Shown here: piece by piece, positions 16,306 through 17,892 of the stretch
How positions within the stretch are numbered: position 1 is the stretch's first letter
Layout: every line of letters begins with the position of its first letter
Origin: Bdellovibrionota bacterium
Lineage (GTDB): Bacteria; Bdellovibrionota; Bdellovibrionia; Bdellovibrionales; JAMPXM01
NCBI GenBank assembly: GCA_963170185.1
Contig: CAUJGS010000012.1
Location: 1-36,080 of the forward strand
DNA: 36,080 nt
Direction: 5' to 3'
Notes under the pieces: generated by a model
What the model was told of the DNA's origin: nothing
Databases searched by the model: none
What the model saw: only the letters and a program-made list of their open reading frames with translations
Program-made: the position numbers and the translations under genes

Positions 16306-16980
16306 ATGAATATGCCAAAATATATGATCCTTGCGCTCGGCTTGGTGTTGGTTGTCGCATTTCAAAACTGCGGTAACGACATGAGGTTTGAACAAGAGGG
16401 TTCTCTCGTTGCAAAAGCGGACGAGGATACGGATGGCGACGGGATCCCAGATGATCCATCGAGTGATGATGACTCCGATGACGGAGGGTCAGGTGGCGGT
16501 GGAGGCGGCGGTGGAGGCGGCGGAGGGATGAATCCTGGCGACGGTCAACCACCTCGCGCGACTCCGACACCTTCTCCGACTCCACGAAACGGCGGCGGTA
16601 CGAATCCGCGCAATCCACCATCTAGTGGTGGCAAGGATTGTAAGGACAAGGACAAAGACTGCGAAGAGTGTAAGGACCGAGGTGGAGACCATTCGGACGA
16701 CGATACATCTCAGTCGAATTACCTCTGTGTCTTGGATGGTCCGGGGAAATCCGTGAAGCTCAACTACGTATCCGGTTCTGGGGCGTTTGCCGATAACTCG
16801 GCTTCGGACGCCGCCTGTATGTCGAAGAATGCGTGTCTGAATGTCGCGAGCAAGGCGTTCCGAGTGAAACTCGCCGAAGAACGTGGCTTCTGTCGGAACG
16901 CGCGTGTGCGGCTTTCCGATCGACAAGTGGAAGAAGCTGCCAGCAAGGCGAAGCTCCTGCAACTGGTTCACGGCGAGTAA
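16306..16980 (+). CDS. Lipoprotein-like protein with Gly/Asp-rich linker and four-Cys C-terminal domain (paralogue 1)
   Basis: The 224-residue protein opens with a hydrophobic signal ending LVVAFQNCGN, where Cys22 is the likely lipidated residue although Asn at -1 departs from the usual lipobox. Then come NDMRFEQ and LVAKADED, an Asp-rich run (DTDGDGIPDD, similar to a calcium-binding thrombospondin-type repeat), a run of 12 Gly, a Pro/Thr/Asn stretch, and a Lys/Asp/Cys stretch (DCKDKDKDCEEC). The C-terminal domain, about residues 138-224, has CVLDGPGKSVKL, ACMSKNAC, AFRVKLAEERGFC and LSDRQVEEA. The same domain recurs in the next gene, so the pair is a tandem duplication. AGGAGG precedes the ATG. 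I do not know the family. Probable location: outer membrane, facing the periplasm or outside. Confidence 0.75.
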   Translation: MNMPKYMILALGLVLVVAFQNCGNDMRFEQEGSLVAKADEDTDGDGIPDDPSSDDDSDDGGSGGGGGGGGGGGGMNPGDGQPPRATPTPSPTPRNGGGTNPRNPPSSGGKDCKDKDKDCEECKDRGGDHSDDDTSQSNYLCVLDGPGKSVKLNYVSGSGAFADNSASDAACMSKNACLNVASKAFRVKLAEERGFCRNARVRLSDRQVEEAASKAKLLQLVHGE

Positions 16981-17020
16981 GGAAACTCCTAGGTTGCTCT
17001 TTCGTCCGATTGTCCTGAAC

Positions 17021-17060
17021 GAGAACGCGCCCACCTTAAAAGGGGGCGCGTTCTCATTTT
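17021..17060 (+). terminator. Rho-independent terminator between paralogues
   Basis: GAGAACGCGCCC (17021-17032) pairs perfectly over 12 bp with GGGCGCGTTCTC (17044-17055), followed by ATTTT. The T-run is short but the stem is very strong. It separates the two paralogous genes into two transcripts, so the second must have its own promoter in 17061-17235, where I see no other clear feature. Confidence 0.78.
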
Positions 17061-17235
17061 GAGACGTCGTGCGATGGTACGACGAACGACTAGGCAGATA
17101 GGGTGGGTTAGACAGGTTTTTGCGCTCCAACGCCAATCCAATCGTAGCCTGGTTGGAACGCCGGTTGCTCTAACTCTTAGGCACGTGGGTAAGAAGTCAG
17201 CACGTGTTCGCAAGTGAGACAGCAGGGGGTAAGTG

Positions 17236-17892
17236 ATGAACAAATTCTTCGTACTGGTCGCCATGGTGACGATGATGGTGAGCTACCAGAACTGTTCGAA
17301 TTCCATGTCTTTTGATGCCAGTGAACAATTGGTGGCAAAAGTCGGCGAAGAAGATGATTCAAATACTTATGACGGCGTCATCGACGAGATCGCCGACAGC
17401 ATGCCGACTCCAGCTCAACCATCGCCGGAAGGGCCAGTTGCGCAACCGCCGCGTGTGCCGGATACGCGTTATCCTCCAATTGCCCGCGACCCAGATCACG
17501 ATGACGACGACCATGATCACGACCGTGATGGCCGTCACGATCATGACGACAAAGACTGCGATAAGAAGAAAGACAAAGATAAAGACTATGCGGATGACGA
17601 TGAGAAATCATCTAACGCCAAGTACGTCTGTGTGCTTGACGGACCAGGGAAGTCGATTCGCTTGGGCTTGAGCTCGGCAGGTCTTAGTGACAATACTTCG
17701 ACCGTCAACGACATCTGTATGTCAAAACGGGCTTGTGAAGAGGTGGTTTCCAAGGCTTATACCGTGAAGTCGGCCGAGAAGCGTGGTTACTGTGGAGACA
17801 GCAATCGAGCGGACATCGTGCAGATGTCCGACGCTCAGGTGGATGAAGCGATCGCGCAAGAGCTTCTCAAGCGCATGATGTCTTCAAATTGA
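17236..17892 (+). CDS. Lipoprotein-like protein with Asp/His-rich linker and four-Cys C-terminal domain (paralogue 2)
   Basis: This 218-residue protein is built like the one at 16306. A hydrophobic signal ends MMVSYQNCSN (Cys20), and NSMSFDASEQLVAK follows in the same position as in its neighbour. The linker differs: a Pro-rich part and then a very Asp/His-rich stretch (DHDDDDHDHDRDGRHDHDD), which could bind divalent metals. The C-terminal domain repeats the shared motifs CVLDGPGKSIRL, ICMSKRAC, AYTVKSAEKRGYC and MSDAQVDEA. ATG 17236 is chosen with GGGGG about eight bases upstream; an overlapping in-frame GTG at 17233 is possible. The stop overlaps the end of the convergent nfu gene by nine bases. 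Confidence 0.75.
   Translation: MNKFFVLVAMVTMMVSYQNCSNSMSFDASEQLVAKVGEEDDSNTYDGVIDEIADSMPTPAQPSPEGPVAQPPRVPDTRYPPIARDPDHDDDDHDHDRDGRHDHDDKDCDKKKDKDKDYADDDEKSSNAKYVCVLDGPGKSIRLGLSSAGLSDNTSTVNDICMSKRACEEVVSKAYTVKSAEKRGYCGDSNRADIVQMSDAQVDEAIAQELLKRMMSSN

Follow-up and report, generated by a model that had tools for sequence, protein, structure and literature searches.

A tandem pair of putative envelope lipoproteins carrying an undescribed four-cysteine domain in Bdellovibrionota

The window, i.e., the whole 36,080-nucleotide stretch of Bdellovibrionota DNA analyzed here, contains two neighboring genes, W1 and W2, that encode putative lipoproteins of the same overall layout (Table 1). Both are preceded by a purine-rich ribosome-binding site, and W2 starts with the ATG at 17236, an in-frame GTG also being present at 17233. 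The original prediction took the two for adjacent paralogs, which is borne out by a BLASTP alignment over their whole length (E = 2e-26) and by shuffle tests. The Smith-Waterman score is 183 for the domain alone, against a maximum of 58 among 2000 shuffles (z = 29), and 90 for the N-terminal leader, against a shuffle maximum of 43. The LVAK segment and the domain motifs that had been listed as common to both genes (CVLDGPGKS, CMSK.AC, AE.RG[FY]C, and SD.QV.EA) could all be verified. The domain measures 87-90 aa, and the hydrophilic, low-complexity linker of ~110 aa before it has a Gly/Pro composition in W1 and an Asp/His/Pro composition in W2. To say, as had been done, that these middle parts differ completely goes too far: a weak K/D-rich segment (KDC.. 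/ DKDC) upstream of the domain is common to both, and the linker alignment score is equalled by just 0.1% of composition-preserving shuffles. The W1 tether starts with DTDGDGIPDD (16420-16460), which resembles a thrombospondin type 3 Ca2+-binding repeat and is kept in the ortholog of a sister species (G004).

Table 1. Positions of the features at the W1-W2 locus, in window numbering, and of the module loci in relatives
Feature	Position	Strand	Remarks
W1, putative lipoprotein gene	16306..16980	+	224 aa
W1 layout: lipobox VAFQNC, LVAK, TSP3-like DTDGDGIPDD, Gly/Pro linker, C-terminal domain	16306..16980	+	
W1 signal sequence and putative lipobox, FQNC at end	16306..16371	+	pattern match 16360-16371
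W1 low-complexity tether	16372..16716	+	
W1 four-Cys C-terminal domain	16717..16977	+	
Hairpin between W1 and W2, ATTTT tail, terminator-like	17021..17060	+	
W2, paralogous putative lipoprotein gene	17236..17892	+	218 aa
W2 layout: lipobox VSYQNC, LVAK, Asp/His/Lys-rich linker, C-terminal domain	17236..17892	+	
W2 signal sequence and putative lipobox, YQNC at end	17236..17295	+	pattern match 17284-17295
W2 low-complexity tether	17296..17619	+	
W2 four-Cys C-terminal domain	17620..17889	+	AlphaFold model pLDDT 86.6, pTM 0.76
Module loci with the lipoprotein gene	L047:2670-6258, L082:3040-6924, L085:771-5142, L092:2454-6305		
Further module loci	L139-L158		

The terminator proposed between the two genes exists as a hairpin, with a stem of about 15 bp (17021-17056) and a regional fold z of -5.2. 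Its standing as a terminator is less certain, for the tail is a short ATTTT and a consensus terminator scan did not pick it up. In the sister species, a canonical hairpin followed by T7 occupies the position equivalent to this gap, and the two structures together make it plausible that W1 and W2 are separate transcription units.

Both proteins begin with the features of a lipoprotein signal, namely a charged start, a hydrophobic core, and a Cys near residue 20, with Cys22 in W1 and Cys20 in W2 following hydrophobic stretches. The classical lipobox carries a small residue (A/G/S) at -1; W1 and W2 do not conform to it, having Asn at -1 and Gln at -2. Since Asn at this position falls outside the classical pattern, lipidation is inferred. 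The Q-N-C signal end is indeed present in both genes, as originally noted, but it is no mark of this family. The genome holds 38 matches to [FY]QNC and 16 to the pattern in reverse, used as a control; of the 30 loci fetched (L159-L188), at least 15 are unrelated ORFs that look like lipoproteins but have very different C-terminal parts. Because it recurs behind hydrophobic starts in these other ORFs, [FY]QNC, with its Asn at -1, is read as a lineage-wide variant of the lipobox. As such it would be a signature of lipoproteins throughout the lineage, and standard lipobox patterns may overlook the proteins that carry it.

The tandem arrangement is not peculiar to the source genome. The sister species keeps the block recJ - (14300 ORF) - queC - (15552 ORF) - W1 - W2 - NifU-like - aldolase - lysS, in which the flanking genes are named by what we take them to be from their sequences. 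In the tree, W1 pairs with copy 1 of the sister species (94/83) and W2 with copy 2 (97/94); each copy thus groups with its own ortholog, so the duplication predates this species, and both copies were retained. Two neighboring copies of the domain are also found in G001, at a different genomic site.

Homologs outside the source genome, on which the original prediction had been staked beforehand, are indeed present. A first domain search gave matches in 11 genomes among the 99 relatives searched, and iterated profiles converged on 30 loci in 20 of the 369 genomes of the phylum, spread over five families (f1, f4, f8, f9, and f11). In nearly all of these loci the domain forms the terminal part of a putative lipoprotein, and copies can be multiplied within one genome (four in G087, three in G271). 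The named genomes that carry it are Bdellovibrionales or Bdellovibrionaceae MAGs. Outside these groups, a pattern scan of 84,980 species genomes, by a method that reaches close relatives only, gave no convincing match, and in the genus labelled g20 the complete genomes hold no credible copy. As far as searched, the family is so far confined to Bdellovibrionota. Matches in G051, G232, and G006 were discarded as chance, showing stops or poor frames, and so was L049 (Oscillospiraceae), whose E-value of 4e-4 is relative to candidate stretches only and which covers half of the domain.

The four cysteines are invariant in all 27 aligned members. The cysteine spacing of the domain is C-x28-C-x5-C-x18-C. 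W1 and W2 show the features that define the family, namely the C-terminal position of the domain, the four invariant cysteines, and CMS..AC. One sub-clade (tree support 100/100) has two more cysteines in an inserted loop (HNCSL...CT.IFPGSKGTC); that these were gained together fits disulfides in an oxidizing envelope. The proteins inspected follow a recurrent layout, in which a [FY]QNC leader or close variant is followed by a tether of ~80-130 residues and then by the domain. The tethers are hydrophilic and of varied composition, ranging from Asn/Asp repeats in G066 and Glu/Lys in G085 to Pro in G001 and Gly/Asn in G087. A distant member, G087:C9 (L096:6287-6835), is secreted with what looks like an ordinary cleavable signal; its N-terminal part is helical and lacks both lipobox and tether.

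The domain is one compact alpha/beta unit of ~80-100 residues with the four invariant cysteines, and AlphaFold gave confident models for two different members (pLDDT 86.6 and 85.1, pTM 0.76 and 0.71). The order of elements is the same in both models: N-terminal strands, a strand with the CMS motif at its end, a helix with the AC cysteine, a further strand, a short helix ahead of the final cysteine, and, on SD.(E/Q)V, a helix at the C-terminus. Fold searches with these two models matched no solved fold (the best Foldseek E-values were 2.7 and 1.8, and no VIA match reached a Z of 2), which does not amount to proof of a new one. No match above the curated cut-off in Pfam, NCBIfam, or PHROGs was obtained with W1, W2, or the 27 members, and PDB sequences did not place the domain either. 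A viral library search returned nothing (best E 0.51), no match pointing to a phage or plasmid origin was found, and among open papers we found no description of the family. The claim that the domain fits no described family thus stands: the family is undescribed in the libraries searched. Several candidates had to be set aside along the way. YxzE, EbpS, and Qn_am matched only the low-complexity tether of W1 and W2, below cut-off, and the PDB sequence match 5cwd, a designed repeat (E 0.003), spans the helical half only. GPGKS is no P-loop, as the upstream Gly is absent, distant members keep the motif only in degraded form (GPYQKI, SPSVKI), and the protein would be exported.

In short, the four-cysteine domain family is real, a conclusion we regard as well supported, and the initial reading of a candidate undescribed lipoprotein family has found support. 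W1 and W2 are tandem paralogs and belong to a family of putative envelope lipoproteins that is undescribed and, as far as searched, restricted to Bdellovibrionota. As a kind of object, the tethered lipoprotein specific to one lineage is already familiar; what is gained is a compact, testable domain family from a phylum that comprises bacterial predators and relatives of theirs and in which the annotation of envelope proteins is poor.

A first functional handle on the family, which matters mainly as a lead, comes from its repeated placement beside a gene module with an extracytoplasmic function (ECF) sigma factor. The module encodes a protein of about 470-520 aa that combines TPRs (by Pfam) with a C-terminal half predicted to be barrel-like, the ECF sigma factor (matching Sigma70_r2 and r4 of Pfam), directly downstream of it a single-TM, anti-sigma-like protein of about 190 aa with no Pfam match, and a small secreted protein carrying [AM]TSEDxxxFD. 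Its marker, a profile of the anti-sigma-like protein, is found in 27 of the 369 genomes, with nearly always the same gene set. In G087 (L047), G070 (L082), G245 (L085), and G048 (L092), which represent four genera and both subfamilies, the lipoprotein gene lies right next to the module and on the same strand. Where only about 0.012 adjacencies are expected by chance (assuming about 3000 genes per genome), four are observed. The gene lies downstream of the module in f4 and upstream in f9, so that the four cases may go back to two ancestral arrangements only; counted as two events, the chance of adjacency is still below 1e-4. The adjacency also lends weight to the weak member in G048, found by profile at a time when its neighborhood was not yet known. 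As a standard component of the module the lipoprotein nonetheless fails, being adjacent at 4 of ~25 module loci (in only four of the 27 genomes with a module, while ten genomes carry both); it is an optional partner.

As to function, we infer an envelope lipoprotein that acts as a binding or sensing component and that, in part of the lineage, is coupled to envelope-sensing ECF regulation, and we give this reading a probability of roughly 0.4. The protein would be exported and lipidated at the QNC cysteine and, because the +2 residue is Gly or Ser and not Asp, sent to the outer membrane. In the oxidizing envelope its four cysteines would form two disulfides, with a third in the six-cysteine subfamily, and the flexible tether, free to drift in sequence, would keep the domain off the membrane for binding something. 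In the four module-linked genera, where its gene directly adjoins the module, the lipoprotein would most likely be part or output of the ECF circuit. Known envelope-sensing circuits of ECF sigma and membrane anti-sigma factors (PMC8103513) offer a likeness, in that a Pfam ECF sigma factor is directly followed by a single-TM protein encoded along with it. A difference is that we could match the module of anti-sigma-like protein, TPR-barrel protein, and small ATSED protein to no described ECF group, and that the lipoprotein is an optional neighbor. The window's own genus is a case apart. A profile search did not detect the module there, and the module link therefore cannot explain W1 and W2, which must either do without it or respond to something different; they are conserved orphans outside the ECF circuit. 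A bolder proposal makes the domain an extracytoplasmic sensor of a ligand or of damage in an undescribed trans-envelope signaling system, in which the outer-membrane TPR/beta-barrel protein and the tethered lipoprotein would act on the single-TM anti-sigma factor and so free the ECF sigma factor, with W1 and W2 under other control; this we consider unlikely.

The main rival to ECF coupling is a tethered surface adhesin or binding domain, pushed past the outer membrane and binding prey, a polysaccharide, or another cell, with the ECF module, in some species, simply controlling one surface protein among several. We hold this possible, with the odds well against it. A long acidic or Pro-rich tether ending in a domain would suit such a role, as would the multiplied copies in G087 and G271, and other lipobox proteins of Bdellovibrio are surface adhesins. 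Bd0875 shares with W1 and W2 the phylum, the N-terminal lipobox anchor, and a folded C-terminal part away from the membrane, but it has a MIDAS/vWA fold (PMC11003981), whereas Pfam reports no common domain for W1 and W2 and the fold searches with our two models revealed no resemblance to a known adhesin fold. The earlier framing in terms of prey attack is unsupported, since nothing here marks the organism as a predator. Quite unlikely, too, is an envelope lipoprotein for metal or Ca2+, whose His/Asp-rich tether and DTDGDGIPDD hold a divalent metal while the cysteine domain is structural. Asp/His runs do occur in the tethers of W2, G004, G001, and G040, and both W1 and its ortholog keep DTDGDGIPDD, yet tether composition varies (G066 has Asn/Asp repeats, G087_C90 Gly/Asn, and G044 no His), so the members cannot have metal binding as their common function.

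It is also tempting to think of the TPR/beta-barrel protein of the module as a Slam-like surface exporter with the lipoprotein as its cargo. Slam (DUF560) and Slam-dependent surface lipoproteins are known (PMC5449769), four relatives here likewise encode a TPR plus predicted beta-barrel outer-membrane protein beside the lipoprotein gene, and there are weak, sub-threshold TPR_Slam matches (E 0.0027 to 0.06). Generic TPR models outscore TPR_Slam by far, however, the barrel has no match to the DUF560/SlipAM model, and the neighbors include an ECF sigma factor. Slam cargo, moreover, is a TbpB-like eight-stranded barrel, in contrast to the small alpha/beta four-cysteine model with short strands and a central and a C-terminal helix. 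As most modules lack the lipoprotein and the window genus has lipoproteins and no detectable barrel, we regard cargo status as very unlikely. Hardly credible, finally, is an iron-sulfur or redox domain with cysteines ligating a cofactor: Fer4_13 is touched by two of the 27 members (best E 0.0023), but most score far below significance, the cysteine spacing is no ferredoxin pattern, the extra cysteines arrive as a pair, and an extracytoplasmic signal is present.

One further protein deserves mention. The C39 match (L003) was rejected as a family member, as it has only the leader and the start of the tether (QNCSNSMSFD) in common with the family and a different C-terminal part. This putative lipoprotein (L003:1486-2385, G000:C39) has a leader that is almost that of W2 (YQNCSNSMSFDA), joined to an unrelated, repetitive C-terminal part, which suggests that leader and tether may be swapped among lipoproteins.
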